Below the pieces are notes generated by a model. The model was not told the DNA's origin and ran no database searches. It saw nothing but the letters and a program-made list of their open reading frames with translations. Positions 53,674 through 63,253 of a stretch of 64,000 nucleotides of DNA are shown piece by piece. The stretch covers positions 1 through 64,000 of IMG/VR virus record IMGVR_UViG_3300025120_000037, one strand, 5' to 3'. The stretch's first letter is position 1; each line of letters starts with the position of its first letter. The position numbers were made by a program, and so were the translations under genes. The stretch comes from a virus.

Positions 53674-55197
53674 ATGCCTAGTCGCGAGACATTTGCACAT
53701 CGTAGGAGTCTTAAATTACGTGCTGCAAAAGCAATAAACTCTGAGAACCCTGAGTTAGATAGTATATTTACAAGAGCAGCAGATGACTTCCATACGTTCT
53801 GTACGCTTATGGATAAAGCGCCAGCAGCTCATATGCTGGAGTGGCATAAACACCTAATTACTGGTGAGAGCAACAGGTACCTTTTAGATATCGCAGGACC
53901 AAATCTAGACATTCTTGCCCCACGTGGTAGCGCGAAGTCAACAGTATTGAACATGTTTACTGCTTGGATTATCGGGCGGCATACGACAGCGGGGCTATCT
54001 CTTCAAATTATTTACTGCTCTTACAACATCGCCACGGCTATTCCAAAAAGTCGAATCATCAAACAGATAATCGACTCTTCAACATTTAAAAAGATTTTTC
54101 CCAAAGTCCAGTTGCGGTCTGGTATGCAGTCGGATATTGGTTGGAGTATTGACTTTGATTATGCAGGCATCAGTCGTGTTGGTGACGAAGAATTTACGCT
54201 AAGAGCCGCTGGTCTTAGAGGAAGTATCACGTCTAAACGCGCTCACCTTGTCATCGTGGATGACCCTATTAAGTCAAGTACAGACATTAAGAACCCGGCC
54301 ATTAGGAAGGAAATGAACAACAACTGGTCTTCGGTTATTGCACCAATTATTTTTGAAGGTGGTCGTTCTATCTGTCTAGGTACCCGTTTTCATCCGCTCG
54401 ATATTCACAAAACGATGTTTATTCCCAGCAAAGGGTGGAAGCAAGTCCAGCAAGAAGCTCTTACATATGATGACGAGGGAGAGGCAGTCAGTTATTGGCC
54501 CGAGCAGTGGAGTGTTGACTACCTACAAGGCCAGAAAGAATTAGATCCCGTTGCTTTTGCTTTCCAGTACCAGCAACAACCAGTGATGACATCGGATTTG
54601 ATCCTGTCACCAGACCTTCTGGTCAAGGGTGATGTGATCACTGAATTTGATAGTCTGGCAATTGGTATAGACCTATCGGCCAGCAAGAACGAAACTTCTG
54701 ATTACACAGCATTTGTTCTTGGAGGACGGTTTAAAGATAAGTACTACATCATCGATGCACATCAAGTCAGATCTATCGGAAACCTGGAGAAAATAGACTT
54801 GCTGGCAAAAATGCTTGTGGAGTGGGGGATCCTTCAGGAGAACTCTGAAGGACAGTATTTTCCTACATACTCAACATGTACGTTGGTTGTTGAATCTGTA
54901 GCTTACCAAGCATCTCTATCTGCTGATTTAAAACGGATTATGTTGAACGAGTGGGGGCTTGGTAACCTGCACATTAATGAAGTGAAAGGTTTCAGAGGTG
55001 ACAAAATTTCTCGGTTTAGAGGGACGTTGGGACTGCTTGAAAATAAAAAGGTGATTTTTAATCGCTATCGAAAATTTGATCAGCTCTTTGATCAATTGAT
55101 CAATCTTGGTGCTACGTCGCATGACGACCTTCTTGACGCATACACTCACTTAATGTGTTTCCTGCAACGCAGAGGTAATTTTCAGGTGGAGTACTAA
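53674..55197 (+). CDS. terL: terminase large subunit
   Basis: 507 residues, ATG 53674. ATPase: Walker A LDILAPRGSAKSTVLNMF (about 79-96), Walker B HLVIVDDPIKS (about 190), coupling motif region SSVIAPI and CLGTRFHPLD. RNase H-like nuclease: GIDLSASKNETSDYTAF (about 330; first Asp), LVVESVAYQ, and HDDLLDAYTH (about 482; final acidic pair). It packages DNA into proheads and cuts the concatemer. Its last base is the first base of the next gene's ATG (TAATG overlap). Confidence 0.95.
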   Translation: MPSRETFAHRRSLKLRAAKAINSENPELDSIFTRAADDFHTFCTLMDKAPAAHMLEWHKHLITGESNRYLLDIAGPNLDILAPRGSAKSTVLNMFTAWIIGRHTTAGLSLQIIYCSYNIATAIPKSRIIKQIIDSSTFKKIFPKVQLRSGMQSDIGWSIDFDYAGISRVGDEEFTLRAAGLRGSITSKRAHLVIVDDPIKSSTDIKNPAIRKEMNNNWSSVIAPIIFEGGRSICLGTRFHPLDIHKTMFIPSKGWKQVQQEALTYDDEGEAVSYWPEQWSVDYLQGQKELDPVAFAFQYQQQPVMTSDLILSPDLLVKGDVITEFDSLAIGIDLSASKNETSDYTAFVLGGRFKDKYYIIDAHQVRSIGNLEKIDLLAKMLVEWGILQENSEGQYFPTYSTCTLVVESVAYQASLSADLKRIMLNEWGLGNLHINEVKGFRGDKISRFRGTLGLLENKKVIFNRYRKFDQLFDQLINLGATSHDDLLDAYTHLMCFLQRRGNFQVEY

Positions 55198-57946: not shown

Positions 57947-60172
57947 ATGTCTACCTCTTCAGAGACTCGAACTAGATTTAATGAGATCTTAGAGGCGTCC
58001 CGCACTCAAGATCGAAGTAGTCAATCATCCACGATGGTTGTTTTGAGTCATTTACAGCAAATGATTCTTCTTATGATTAAGAAGGGTCTTGCTTTCTATT
58101 GTGATCAAGATACGTTCAAAGGGCGTACAAAATTTCTGCATGATATCATAGCTCTCAATAGACTTGATATTCGTTTTCCTTCTATCATCAGGAATTTTTT
58201 AATTGACGGAAGTGGTCTCTTTTACTTCCGACCTGACCCAAAATTGAAGTATCAGGTTTATTTTTTCAATAAAAATCAATACCGGGTTTATCACGACTTA
58301 AACGGTGAAGTAGAAGAAGTCATTATTATTTACTCTTATAAAGTTAAAAATCAGGGCCTTGGACTTCCTAGCACTACAGCTAACGCAAACAAGCGTTATG
58401 TGCGTTTGGCGATTACATCCGAGGAAATCAGCGAAGTTGAGACTGACTCAGAGCTTAGCTTCGATCTTGAACCAGGAACTGTTCTAACTCCCTCCAAGCA
58501 ACGACCTAACACATTAGGTTTTATACCTGCGGTAGAAGTTTTAAACAAACCCAACGCAAGTGGTACGGAAGGAGAGGGTGAGTTTGATCCTTTTATGACG
58601 CAGCTCGTCCTTCACGACGAACTTACTCGCAATATCGCTAAGAACATTGAGTTTTTCGGTAACCCGACACTGATTAGTTCTCGGCCCAGAAGTGACCTTG
58701 TGGAAGCCAATGATACTCAGAGCACTTTCAGACCGACTATTAGTAGTCAAAGTGGTTTTGCTGGGCAAAGCCAACCTTCGACTCGCGTAAGTGAGCCTTT
58801 TGGGACCGGTATGGGTTCCGGACTTCGTGTGCCTCGGATTATCGCGAACGTCGAGCCTTCTGACCGAGTCGGTTATATGACTCCTGACCCTGTTAACGGG
58901 GACATGAACCGATATACCCTTCTTCTTAGGGAAGAGATTCGCACAGCTTTAGGCGGCGTAGATGAGATTTCAATCTCTGCAGGTGCTACTGCAACTGAGC
59001 TCAAGGGTTTGATGGGACGTGCTCAAGCCACCGCCTTAAGGAAGAATAAGTCCTTCCTTACTTATGGCTTTAACCGTCTCTTAGAGATGATGTTGTACCA
59101 CCAGGAGACAATTTTTCGGGAGTCCTTTATCGCTGCTTCGGGTTTAAAAGAACCCAAACCGCCTAAAGAAGAAACCGAAGAAAATATAGAGAAATACCAA
59201 CGTTCTTTGGCTAAGTTTGAGGCAAAAGTTACTCAAATGATTAAACAAGCACTTCAGGAGAACGCAGTCCCTCCAGGAGTTGTAGGCTTACCTGAAGATG
59301 GAGAACGTGAGGTAACTTATCGTTTTCAAGGTGATGTTTACGAAGACACCGCTTACGACATCAATCAAAAATCTATTGTTGTTCGTAACTTACAGGAGTT
59401 AGGTGTTGACAGTGTTGAAGCTCTAAAGTTTCTTTTTCCTGAGAAAACTGATTCTGAGCGAGCCGAAATGTTGAAAGGCTTTCCTTTCAGAATGGTTCAA
59501 CAAACACAGTCGGCAATGCAGCAATTTCTGGTATTATTAAGCCAGATGTTGCAGTCTCCGCATCCTCTTGCGCCTAATCAACCTCTAGCGGCTGATCCTA
59601 GACTGAATATCACTCCTCTCCTTTACAGGACATTCGATCACCTCGCAGAGGAATTAACTTACTCGGGTAGCTATGAACCAGCAGATCCAAGCTTCGACCC
59701 CGAGCCCGGTCTCCCCGGCGGCAGCACCGGCGGTACAGGACCAGGGCTCAGTAGGGTACCCCCAATGGGTTCCGCAAGCAGCTACCCCGGTGGCAGCTTC
59801 GGTACCTACAGCCCAACCGCCGTCCCAGGTGGCACCGGCTACGGACCCTACTATCAGCAACCAGTACAACCCGTCAACGTATCAATCTTCCCCGAGCAGC
59901 AACCCGTGGGAACAGGCAATGGGTTCTTTGGAGAGGGTCCTCTCTCAGGTGAACTCTCAATCCCTCAGCCAAACTCCACAGTCTCCCTACCTGGAGGCAC
60001 CCGCGCAGGTTACTCCACAGAGCAATCAAGTTTTACAGGCCCAGCCTTGGGCTTATCAGGAGCCCCAGGTAGCGCCGATATCCAATATCAGCGCCTCACC
60101 GACCCAAACTTCCTCGCAAGTTTCTACGGGCCAGAGCGCAGGAATCAGCCCCGTAACCGCCGAGGTCGTTAG
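57947..60172 (+). CDS. portal protein
   Basis: 741 residues, ATG 57947. Core of a portal: IIRNFLIDGSGLFYFRPDPK (wing/stem region), YRVYHDLNGEVEEVIIIYSY, an MTQLVLHDELTRNIAKNIEF segment, and the long stem-to-crown helices VDEISISAGATATELKGLMG, then GFNRLLEMMLYHQETIFRES. It is the dodecameric DNA gateway and docking point for the terminase. The last 170 residues (from about 576) are Gly/Pro/Ser-rich, and that stretch (59673-60172) is also read in another frame by the next gene. The core ends before this tail, so the extension may be dispensable. Confidence 0.85.
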   Translation: MSTSSETRTRFNEILEASRTQDRSSQSSTMVVLSHLQQMILLMIKKGLAFYCDQDTFKGRTKFLHDIIALNRLDIRFPSIIRNFLIDGSGLFYFRPDPKLKYQVYFFNKNQYRVYHDLNGEVEEVIIIYSYKVKNQGLGLPSTTANANKRYVRLAITSEEISEVETDSELSFDLEPGTVLTPSKQRPNTLGFIPAVEVLNKPNASGTEGEGEFDPFMTQLVLHDELTRNIAKNIEFFGNPTLISSRPRSDLVEANDTQSTFRPTISSQSGFAGQSQPSTRVSEPFGTGMGSGLRVPRIIANVEPSDRVGYMTPDPVNGDMNRYTLLLREEIRTALGGVDEISISAGATATELKGLMGRAQATALRKNKSFLTYGFNRLLEMMLYHQETIFRESFIAASGLKEPKPPKEETEENIEKYQRSLAKFEAKVTQMIKQALQENAVPPGVVGLPEDGEREVTYRFQGDVYEDTAYDINQKSIVVRNLQELGVDSVEALKFLFPEKTDSERAEMLKGFPFRMVQQTQSAMQQFLVLLSQMLQSPHPLAPNQPLAADPRLNITPLLYRTFDHLAEELTYSGSYEPADPSFDPEPGLPGGSTGGTGPGLSRVPPMGSASSYPGGSFGTYSPTAVPGGTGYGPYYQQPVQPVNVSIFPEQQPVGTGNGFFGEGPLSGELSIPQPNSTVSLPGGTRAGYSTEQSSFTGPALGLSGAPGSADIQYQRLTDPNFLASFYGPERRNQPRNRRGR

Positions 60173-60602
60173 TCACTTCGGTATTGAAGCTCCAGGCATT
60201 CTTAATCAGTACTCTTGCTCCCTGGAAGATCTATTGATCGACCAAGGAACCAAGATGGACAACCTGGCTGCTCGCCATGATGCGATGCAAGTCATCTTGA
60301 CTGATCCAGATCATCTGGCCAACTACACCGACCGCTTCTTCACCGAAGTTTTCCCTGTAGATGTGGATGAAAACGCTCTTCAGACCCAAGGCACTCAACA
60401 GCCTCAGGCTTACGAGCAAAACTACGACATGCCTGCACCACCTGTTGGTGCTGGTGGCTCAAATAACAACGTTGCTCCTCAGCAGCAGTGGGAACAGTTC
60501 CAGAACACTATGAACCGTAGTCCTGAGAATGCATGGCGCATCCTCAACAACATGGGCTCGGATGCTCTTCGTAATAAACTGTTGTTTATGGATCCTTCCT
60601 AA
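59673..60602 (+). CDS. scaffold-like protein, overlaps portal gene by 500 nt
   Basis: 309 residues, ATG 59673, in the +1 frame relative to the portal. Residues 1-165 are Pro/Gln/Ser/Ala-rich and overlap the portal tail; residues 170-309 contain VSHFGIEAPGILNQYSCSLE, DLLIDQGTKMDNLAARHDAM and a Gln/Asn-rich end with WRILNNMGSDALRNKLLF. Acidic, helical with low-complexity parts, and placed between portal and capsid genes, this fits a scaffolding protein. Two bases of a stop (TAA at 60600-60602) precede a terminator. Family not identified. Confidence 0.65.
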   Translation: MNQQIQASTPSPVSPAAAPAVQDQGSVGYPQWVPQAATPVAASVPTAQPPSQVAPATDPTISNQYNPSTYQSSPSSNPWEQAMGSLERVLSQVNSQSLSQTPQSPYLEAPAQVTPQSNQVLQAQPWAYQEPQVAPISNISASPTQTSSQVSTGQSAGISPVTAEVVSHFGIEAPGILNQYSCSLEDLLIDQGTKMDNLAARHDAMQVILTDPDHLANYTDRFFTEVFPVDVDENALQTQGTQQPQAYEQNYDMPAPPVGAGGSNNNVAPQQQWEQFQNTMNRSPENAWRILNNMGSDALRNKLLFMDPS

Positions 60603-60698: not shown

Positions 60699-60854
60699 AT
60701 GAGAACTGGTAACGACCGCCCTCGCAAGAAAAAAGTCAATCAGGATCAACCCGTGGAGGCAACACCTAAGGTTGAAGATAGTCAGACTACTACTGAAGAT
60801 AGTCAGCCTTCGCCTGAACCTGAATCATTTTTTGAATCTGTTGAACTGGGATGA
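60699..60854 (+). CDS. 51-residue Lys-then-acidic peptide
   Basis: ATG 60699, TGA 60852-60854. Basic start MRTGNDRPRKKKVNQDQPVE, then a Thr/Ser/Glu-rich acidic part (VEDSQTTTEDSQPSPEPE) ending FFESVELG. It overlaps the minus-strand gene at 60803-61171 by 52 bp at their 3' ends. No family. Confidence 0.5.
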   Translation: MRTGNDRPRKKKVNQDQPVEATPKVEDSQTTTEDSQPSPEPESFFESVELG

Positions 60855-61171
60855 ATTTCTCCTATTTGTGAGATAAATTTTTTTTCAAGTGTTTTTTCGG
60901 CCATAGCGATAATTCTTATTCCTGCGTAACCGCAGACAAAAGATATCGCAATAGCCTCTTTTCTTGTGAGTTTTAATCTTTCTGCTACAGCAGGGCTTAC
61001 GAAAGTAGCCAATAGGTAACCTGCGATTACTGTTTTTAAAAAATATATTGCTAACTTTTTTAATTTTTTTGGATGTACTAGAGATTCAGTAATCGATCCA
61101 GAAAAACTGGACAGGGTGGTTTCCGGATCTTCAAACACCACTTCTAGAACTCTGACCGTATCACTAAGCAT
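60803..61171 (-). CDS. two-span membrane protein, holin candidate
   Basis: 122 residues, ATG 61171. After an acidic N-terminus come two membrane helices at about 43-60 (YFLKTVIAGYLLATFVSPAV) and 72-90 (EAIAISFVCGYAGIRIIAMA), separated by a short loop (AERLKLTRK), and a polar tail. The K-x-x-x-(A/G)-Y-x-x-A/T pattern resembles holins with two spans. It lies antisense between scaffold and capsid genes, away from the endolysin, so another membrane role is equally possible. Confidence 0.65.
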   Translation of the reverse strand: MLSDTVRVLEVVFEDPETTLSSFSGSITESLVHPKKLKKLAIYFLKTVIAGYLLATFVSPAVAERLKLTRKEAIAISFVCGYAGIRIIAMAEKTLEKKFISQIGEIHPSSTDSKNDSGSGEG

Positions 61172-61236
61172 GACAAAGTTAGAAAAATATCTTCTGTTTT
61201 CTTAGTCTAAAGTTAAAAAAGGAAACGAGAAAATTT

Positions 61237-62058
61237 ATGGTGTACACTCCTCAATCCAACTGGAAATACGACAAAAATTTGTATCACCCGATTCAATCTG
61301 GGCCTCAGAGAACTGGCAATGATCAGAATCTGACTGATACGTATTTGACTATCTCAAGTGGATATATCCCTCCTTCCAATATTCAACAAACCTGGAACGG
61401 TGTTTTAGATCAAGGAGCCGACTTTGGACGAATACCAGTTGGGCCACCAAATTTATCGGGGTATTTTTCTACTGAATGGAAAGCTATTACCCCAGCTCCT
61501 TCTGGTTACTGGACTAATTACGAAAACGTTAACCCACGTGCATCAGGACTACTGACAAGTTATGAAGGGTATAGGCAACAAGGTCTCTACAGCACTGCAA
61601 ACTCCACCGTTCAAACAGCTATAGGCCCTCAGCCTGGGTTAAGAAACTTTGGAAGTTTTACCTGGTATGGCGAACAGGTACCTGATAATCAACTTTATTC
61701 ACCTTTTCAGACTCCTGGCAGTAACACTAATACTTCTGATGGAGGAGGTATTACCGGTGGAGCAGTCGCTCAACCGCGTATAGCAGCCCCAGCTCTTACC
61801 AACCCTACTAACGACCAATCAGGCTCACGAGCAGCGTGGGTTTATCACTATCCCGTTTATTGCCAAACATTTACAGAAAGTAGATATACAGGTGTACCTG
61901 GTCAGATGGGCTCACCTGTTCGTAATAGTTATAGAGGTAAATCAAGTAGATACGTACCTAATTACGGCTCTGTGTACGGAAAACTTGGTGAGGGGGTTCG
62001 AAACATGGTACGCACCTTCAGTCCTAGTGTGAATAGTTCTAATCAAAAAAGTCTTTAA
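61237..62058 (+). CDS. virion protein of unknown type, Tyr/Gly/Asn-rich
   Basis: 273 residues, ATG 61237. Aromatic and turn-rich throughout (NWKYDKNLYHPIQSGPQRTG, TSYEGYRQQGLYSTANST, YTGVPGQMGSPVRNSYRGKS), with no helices predicted. Composition resembles decoration or minor capsid proteins. It lies directly before the major capsid gene. No known family. Confidence 0.65.
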   Translation: MVYTPQSNWKYDKNLYHPIQSGPQRTGNDQNLTDTYLTISSGYIPPSNIQQTWNGVLDQGADFGRIPVGPPNLSGYFSTEWKAITPAPSGYWTNYENVNPRASGLLTSYEGYRQQGLYSTANSTVQTAIGPQPGLRNFGSFTWYGEQVPDNQLYSPFQTPGSNTNTSDGGGITGGAVAQPRIAAPALTNPTNDQSGSRAAWVYHYPVYCQTFTESRYTGVPGQMGSPVRNSYRGKSSRYVPNYGSVYGKLGEGVRNMVRTFSPSVNSSNQKSL

Positions 62059-62137: not shown

Positions 62138-63253
62138 TTGTTTATTGACAACGATTTTCCGAAGATTCTCGGTGCTGAGCTTTACCGTCCGCACCCTGCT
62201 TACGTCGTGGAAATGGCCGCTGAACCAGTGGTCGTACATGACTTTTCTAAGCAGCCAGGTCAGACGGTACAACTCGATCGGTACCGGTTCTTCGGTAACC
62301 CTGGCTCTAAGGAGTCACGTGAGCGTACAGCAGAGCAAACGATTGGTACTGCAAACAGCAGGAATATCGTAAAAGATAAGGTTCAAGTAACCCTTCGTGA
62401 ATATACAGGGCCTGCAGATCCTAGTGATCCTACACAGCCTTCTACATTCAAGATTGCGCGTGAGACTCTTATCACTGCTCAGCGTCTTTTGCTGGACACT
62501 GGTAACCTCACCACCTTCCACCAGTCAATCGGCAGCTTGACTCTGCTTGATGACTACCGCCGTTGGCGCGACCGGGTGTTCATTAATGAACTCCTTAAGT
62601 CCGTATCTAAGGGTCAGGCTTCTGATTCCCAAGGTGGTTACTATTTCCCCGGCGATCTCGCTACCGGTGCATTAACTTACACCAACGCTGAGCAAGCCAA
62701 ATTTGACGTCAAGGATGACCTCCTTCGTGTAGTCAAGTCCCTACGCAAGCGTAATACTCCGACCTTCCAGGACGGTTTCTACCGCTGCATCTGTGACCCT
62801 ACATTTTTGATGCACTTGCGTCAAAACTCTGACTTCCGTGAGGTGGCTCGCTACCCCGGTAACGGTCAAATCAATCCCCTTATGTCAGGCATGCAGCCTA
62901 ACGCTGCACTGTACATGGGTCAGGGCTTCGGCCAAGCTACTTTTGTGGCTGGCGAACCAATTATGCCGACTGGCTTCGTCTTTGAGGGTGTGCGATTCTT
63001 CGAATCCACCAACATGCCTTCTCAGACTCAAGCTGCGACAGTTGCAGGTGCCGCTCAAGATTACAACGCCGCTGTTGGTATCTTCTTCGGTCCTCAGTGT
63101 GTCGGCGTAGGCATCGGCGGCAACAATGCCCAGGTGCTCCTTAATAACAACGACGACTTCAGCCGGTTCATCCAGATGATTTGGTCGTTGTATGCCGGTT
63201 TCGAACTGCTTAATGCAGATTTCGTTACCGTTGGTTACTCTTTCGACGCTTGA
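62138..63253 (+). CDS. major capsid protein
   Basis: 371 residues from TTG 62138; no earlier start and no ATG before residue 26. HK97-type pattern as in the N4-gp56-like families: PGQTVQLDRYRFFGNPGSKE, TLREYTGPADPSDPTQPSTF, the long FINELLKSVSKGQ helix, KSLRKRNTPTFQDGFYRCIC, DPTFLMHLRQNSDFREVARY, FEGVRFFESTNMP, and AAVGIFFGPQCVGVGIGG. Codon use shifts to C-ending codons, as expected for a highly expressed gene. It would build the head shell from 400+ copies. Confidence 0.85.
   Translation: MFIDNDFPKILGAELYRPHPAYVVEMAAEPVVVHDFSKQPGQTVQLDRYRFFGNPGSKESRERTAEQTIGTANSRNIVKDKVQVTLREYTGPADPSDPTQPSTFKIARETLITAQRLLLDTGNLTTFHQSIGSLTLLDDYRRWRDRVFINELLKSVSKGQASDSQGGYYFPGDLATGALTYTNAEQAKFDVKDDLLRVVKSLRKRNTPTFQDGFYRCICDPTFLMHLRQNSDFREVARYPGNGQINPLMSGMQPNAALYMGQGFGQATFVAGEPIMPTGFVFEGVRFFESTNMPSQTQAATVAGAAQDYNAAVGIFFGPQCVGVGIGGNNAQVLLNNNDDFSRFIQMIWSLYAGFELLNADFVTVGYSFDA

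Follow-up and report, generated by a model that had tools for sequence, protein, structure and literature searches.

In T7-type phages, for example the Prochlorococcus phage P-SSP7, the portal gene (gp8) and the scaffold gene (gp9) are followed by other genes and then by the capsid gene, which is the same order as at the locus described here. The overlaps at the T7-type junction are short (1 nt in P-SSP7 and 8 nt in S-TIP37), whereas those described here are 443-641 nt long. In phage lambda, the Nu3 scaffold is made from an internal start within the protease gene C; both its frame and its sequence are shared with C. The present locus likewise encodes a scaffold-like protein from an internal start in a head gene, but here it is read in a different frame from its partner, the portal gene. 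Out-of-frame +1 coding in tailed phages is known from the Rz/Rz1 lysis genes, where Rz1 lies inside or across Rz. Rz1 is a short lysis lipoprotein, whereas the overlap in the Synechococcus phage S-EIV1 group joins two structural proteins. In viruses, overlaps on the same strand are generally very short; those of the +1 kind have a median length of 14 nt (PMC8903798). In a survey of 338 prokaryotic genomes, none of 715 co-directional overlaps longer than 60 bp was judged real, and surveys caution that most long prokaryotic overlaps are start-site errors (PMC2478687).

The window, that is, the whole stretch of 64,000 nucleotides analysed here, comprises 64 kb of an IMG/VR virus record that is 68 kb long (the source record). 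This record belongs to the S-EIV1 group of uncultured cyanophages, which are found worldwide; S-EIV1 is its sole cultured relative in the phage collection. The features are listed in Table 1. The starts of the portal and scaffold-like genes are 1726 nt apart, and division by 3 leaves 1, which places the second gene in frame +1. The 500-nt out-of-frame overlap of two open reading frames claimed in the first-pass annotation is present. The overlap was also described there as C-rich, and its GC content of 0.54-0.62 and GC skew of -0.16 to -0.22 agree with this; upstream, the GC content is about 0.42 and the skew is near 0. The two tails are both of low complexity, with P+G+S+Q+A+T amounting to 0.61-0.71.

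Table 1. Positions of the features in the window (all on the given strand of the source record)
Feature	Position	Strand	Basis or remark
Terminase large subunit	53674..55197	+	phrog_38, 1e-73
Portal protein gene	57947..60172	+	741 aa; phrog_20475, phrog_64 and Foldseek matches
Nucleotide-level constrained element inside the portal core	59493..59672	+	silent variation 3-4 times lower
TGGTATTAT, candidate extended -10-like promoter motif	59529..59537	+	invariant in clade 1
TAA closing the scaffold frame	59655..59657	+	sequence
Start region of the scaffold-like gene, TCGGGTAGCT-ATG	59663..59675	+	silent-site invariance
Scaffold-like gene	59673..60602	+	309 aa; frame +1 relative to portal; open and aligned in 225 relatives
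Dual-coding overlap	59673..60172	+	exactly 500 nt; purifying selection indicated in both frames
Conserved predicted helix NPWE..., scaffold-like residues 77-93	59901..59951	+	inside the overlap
Acidic helical C-terminal part of the scaffold-like protein, conserved	60150..60602	+	composition, model
Major capsid protein gene, TTG start	62138..63253	+	phrog_1357, 5.6e-23

The identity of the first gene product as a tailed-phage portal protein is supported by several predictions. It matches phrog_20475 at an E value of 1.5e-163, a family annotated merely as virion structural. The matches to portal families are modest (phrog_64, 3.5e-5; phrog_104, 0.0019; residues 60-243). In a Foldseek search, the model matched T7-type and Klebsiella phage portals (best E value 3.8e-6, probability 1.00), and the top 35 PDB matches carry annotations as portals or as portal-containing tail, neck or portal-vertex complexes. 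The model behind this search was poor (mean pLDDT 45.5, TM about 0.2), and the family and fold evidence therefore has to be weighed together. The gene lies between the terminase and capsid genes in both the source record and S-EIV1. The ordered core reaches approximately residue 573 (position 59665), and its last long predicted helix comprises residues 556-573. Beyond it is a Gly/Pro/Ser-rich tail with pLDDT below 50 and a basic C-terminus. The predicted helices stop 8 nt short of the start of the second gene, which falls at the codon of residue 576. The tail retains a P-x-PGST motif and a GSADL-like motif, and its C-terminus is basic in every clade; the tails of clades 2 and 3 align with each other at an E value of 3.9e-30 and weakly with those of clade 1.

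The second protein gave no match to a known scaffold in PHROG, Pfam or PDB. Its comparison by hhalign with eight cyanophage and pelagiphage gp9-type scaffolds gave a probability of 0.3%, and homology to the T7-type gp9 scaffold was dropped on this ground. Since no similarity to gp9 was detected, the protein was filed as scaffold-like by position only. Its gene lies between the portal and major capsid protein genes in the source record, in S-EIV1 and in the relatives L163 and L164. In the core, D+E is 17-22 and K+R is 6-9, and in the model the C-terminal helices have pLDDT of about 70-78, the remainder being disordered. Invariant residues include M1, S8, Q31, P78, W79 and E80. The N-terminal parts of clades 2 and 3 align at an E value of 7.2e-24, and weakly with clade 1. 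Thus, of the reading as portal and scaffold-like genes in the first-pass annotation, the long dual-coding overlap is real and the portal identity is supported, whereas we infer the label "scaffold" from position, composition and C-terminal helices, without detectable homology. It should be mentioned that the gene content between the scaffold-like and capsid genes varies by clade. In the source record, open reading frames at 60803-61171 (-) and 61237-62058 (+) are located there, and the latter matched no PHROG or Pfam family. The major capsid protein is 68.7% identical to its S-EIV1 counterpart; the start codon of its gene is TTG in the source record, GTG in L163 and ATG in L164.

Relatives were gathered as 80 loci near the source record (clade 1), 80 near S-EIV1 (clade 2), three loci from genome contigs, 80 of a third clade, a fourth group, and 80 around a fifth. 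They fell into six clusters at 70% identity of the portal core, the other five being 48-51% identical to the source record's portal core, and the scaffold-like gene was found in all six. The overlap was kept in 318 of the 319 loci with a complete portal 3' end, always in frame +1 and with a length of 443-641 nt (clade 1, 488-515 nt; S-EIV1 clade, 545-641 nt; clade 3, 515-539 nt; group 4, 455-536 nt; group 5, 443-524 nt). In the lone exception, L341, the terminase and portal genes are both broken by frameshifts, probably by sequencing error, and it was rejected as a true overlap-free relative. A frameshifted portal gene is also carried by L165.

S-EIV1 (KJ410740), whose portal is 44% identical to that of the source record, has the same overlap, 554 nt long and unannotated. 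In GenBank its second gene is annotated from 59863, past the portal stop and 190 codons late, and the frame is open for the 554 nt before the portal stop. The annotation error is thus a second gene that is too short, the reverse of the usual start errors at long overlaps. Compared with the source record, S-EIV1 has a strong Shine-Dalgarno sequence and its portal tail reaches further into the second gene. The major capsid protein gene of S-EIV1 also appears to be misannotated: the homologous frame is on the plus strand at KJ410740 60859-61986 (L343:10860-11987), where GenBank has a minus-strand CDS at 60784-61545 and a short plus-strand CDS.

The openness of the two frames was compared with recoded sequences. 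When the portal residues were kept and the codons redrawn, the second frame was open in 1.8% of redraws for the source record, 4.3% for S-EIV1 and 35% for L164; therefore, a single sequence is only moderately improbable in the portal-fixed direction. With the residues of the second protein kept, the portal frame was open in at most 0.04%. As judged from the sequences, the overlap is neither chance nor misannotation, and the decisive point is its retention in the relatives.

For the substitution analysis, approximately 22-25 nearest-neighbour pairs were taken from each of three clades, and the differences were classed as silent or not in each frame. Independence of these pairs is only approximate, and a fixed transition weight of 2 was used. 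In the overlap, portal-silent differences that change the scaffold-like protein occur at 0.156, 0.079 and 0.084 (clades 1, 2 and 3), against 0.624, 0.502 and 0.511 upstream. Differences that change the portal and are silent in the scaffold frame occur at 0.116, 0.146 and 0.122; ordinary scaffold-silent changes downstream occur at 0.52, 0.41 and 0.49. Sites silent in both frames, which are few (41-110 per clade) because the third position of a portal codon is the second position of a scaffold-frame codon, change at 0.65, 0.44 and 0.45. The dN/dS values of the scaffold frame were 0.41 [0.30-0.55], 0.31 [0.24-0.39] and 0.31 [0.23-0.40] in clades 1, 2 and 3 (upstream controls, 0.97, 0.86 and 0.87), and those of the portal frame 0.31 [0.23-0.39], 0.57 [0.41-0.77] and 0.45 [0.34-0.60] (downstream controls, 1.6, 1.5 and 1.8), the wide intervals being due to the small doubly silent counts. 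These low values relative to the controls show purifying selection on both proteins; substitution patterns in relatives were among the checks proposed in the first-pass annotation. A constrained element upstream shows that constraint other than on protein sequence also operates nearby, and it could help to lower the silent rate where the overlap begins.

The internal start of the second gene is conserved together with its surroundings. In clade 1, the GGT, AGC and TAT before the start are invariant in 58 of 58 unique sequences despite possible silent change. In most groups, an invariant Shine-Dalgarno sequence stands before the start; that of clade 1 is weak (GGGT), where other groups have AAGGAG or GAGG. 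In clade 2, AAAAGGAGATGAGTT precedes the start in 71 of 72 sequences, the full start site being AAAAGGAGATGAGTTATG; in clade 3, the site is AAAAAGAGGTAAC[CT]TATG in 75 of 76. The second gene of group 4 has a GTG start with AAGGAG ahead of it. Its distance from the portal codons for ADPRL is fixed: the start follows them by 82 nt in every clade-1 sequence tested and by 70 nt in clades 2 and 3. Of 77 clade-1 sequences, 76 have a stop in the scaffold frame 15 nt ahead of the ATG, and over all clades compared this frame is shut 3-15 nt before the start in 224 of 225 sequences. The TAA of the source record closes this frame, so that the scaffold-like protein has no earlier start. The start signals support the view that both products would be translated.

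We consider, with a probability of about 0.9, that this is a true dual-coding region, in which the portal would be read through and a second protein made from the internal start. Translation of the portal would pass through the 500 nt and end at 60172, while independent initiation at the ATG at 59673 within the portal gene would yield a head protein of about 309 residues in the +1 frame. The flexible tails of both proteins may make the double coding tolerable, and the portal tail and the scaffold-like protein might cooperate in head assembly. The constrained stretch just upstream would then be a regulatory signal, a promoter or leader, by which the scaffold-like and capsid genes could be expressed above the 12-copy portal.

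It is extremely improbable that the second gene actually starts past the portal stop, as annotated for S-EIV1 in GenBank, with the open frame upstream being incidental. The survey of prokaryotic overlaps cited above would favour such an error, and in 2-35% of redraws the +1 frame stays open when nothing but the portal residues is kept. However, the first-pass annotation had named a start downstream of 60172 as the observation that would speak against the overlap, and constraint in the second frame was found to begin at 59673, the internal start. The start signals are invariant, as are NPWE and similar residues within the overlap, and 318 of 319 relatives are open. The portal might instead end near residue 575, its 3' extension being an unused reading frame; no fold is predicted past residue 573, and the position of the stop differs among clades. 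This is very unlikely: portal-changing, scaffold-silent changes are 3-5 times rarer than doubly silent ones (0.12-0.15 vs 0.44-0.65), the tail motifs align between clades, and the C-terminus is basic in every clade.

A nucleotide-level element does exist just upstream, where the portal frame alone is open, and RNA or DNA signals rather than two proteins might be thought to cause the low silent variation. This too seems highly improbable, as doubly silent sites in the overlap change at a neutral rate, and the pattern over the three codon positions is that predicted for two overlapping codes. Furthermore, the silent rate of the scaffold frame recovers exactly at the portal stop, returning to 0.36-0.45. 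The frame relation and the long overlap would also permit a portal-scaffold fusion made by +1 ribosomal frameshifting, from which the second product might partly come. The start codon with its Shine-Dalgarno sequence is conserved, however, and the scaffold frame is closed just before it, which makes a contribution of this kind very improbable.

As to which frame is the older, the first-pass annotation regarded one of the two ends as probably overprinted. Codon usage is non-native in both frames in three clades and points to neither side. Against an old scaffold frame is the finding that fixing its residues almost never leaves the portal frame open (at most 0.04% of draws, as above). The first-pass annotation had proposed to test whether the portal length is constant. 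Measured from a conserved motif of the scaffold-like protein, with erroneous motif hits disregarded, the portal stop lies at approximately -13 to +98 nt, depending on the clade. The stop slides over this motif, and the clade-2 extension therefore overprints scaffold sequence common to all clades. This speaks against the portal frame being the old one at the 3' edge. No outgroup without the overlap was found, even when variants of the portal motifs were searched for and a rare lineage was included. The likeliest history is that the overlap is old, was already there in the ancestor of the sampled phages, and has since moved at its 3' edge. The sequence evidence shows that all sampled S-EIV1-like phages have the overlap from their ancestor and that both protein sequences are maintained by selection.

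Starting about 60 codons ahead of the scaffold start in clade 1, and about 100 codons ahead of it in clades 2 and 3, silent variation in the portal gene drops to 0.05-0.22, against 0.4-0.5 elsewhere. The constrained stretch spans 59373-59672, with its strongest part as given in Table 1, and is up to about 300 nt long in other groups. The drop is weaker in group 5, and the pairs of group 4 are too few for certainty. No comparable dip was seen in the terminase and major capsid protein genes. An extra open reading frame was rejected as the cause, as a six-frame check revealed no other conserved open frame; the nearest was an antisense frame that is open in 24% of clade 2. Recombination was also rejected: constraint is preferred because almost all pairs, at any pair distance, differ less in the element than in either flank. 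Separately, a few pairs of clade 1 and clade 3 look recombinant, being near-identical on one side of the element and diverged on the other, as if portal and scaffold modules were swapped at it.

The element points to an additional nucleotide-level signal besides the two proteins. A promoter or leader for expression of the scaffold-like and capsid genes is favoured, and a DNA packaging signal is possible. As to a sigma-70 promoter, the extended -10 motif is conserved in clade 1 only among the clades compared. A block that hardly varies, TTAGG[T/C]GTTGATAGCATTGAAGCACTG, is common to clades 2 and 3 and is single-copy in S-EIV1. A structured leader hiding the start was not supported, as the accessibility equals that of recoded controls. 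RNAalifold gave 74 pairs for clade 2, only 4 of them changed on both sides; fold z-scores reach -3.9 in clade 2 and are inconsistent between clades. One sub-threshold Rfam match lies outside the element. Tentatively, and with a good deal of doubt, the overlap and the 180-300 nt element might form one composite control region in the portal gene, a promoter/leader or packaging signal followed by dual-coded, interacting tails. Such a region would set the portal:scaffold ratio and couple head assembly to expression, a coupling not known from other tailed phages.

In an abundant lineage of cyanophages, two head genes have kept a 440-640 nt overlap across approximately 50% protein divergence. The genomes are about 80 kb, and space is not an obvious reason for it. 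Gene callers can remove the first half of one of the two genes, and the case points to an unsuspected signal within the portal gene. The overlap would provide a clean natural system for two proteins evolving in one stretch of DNA.
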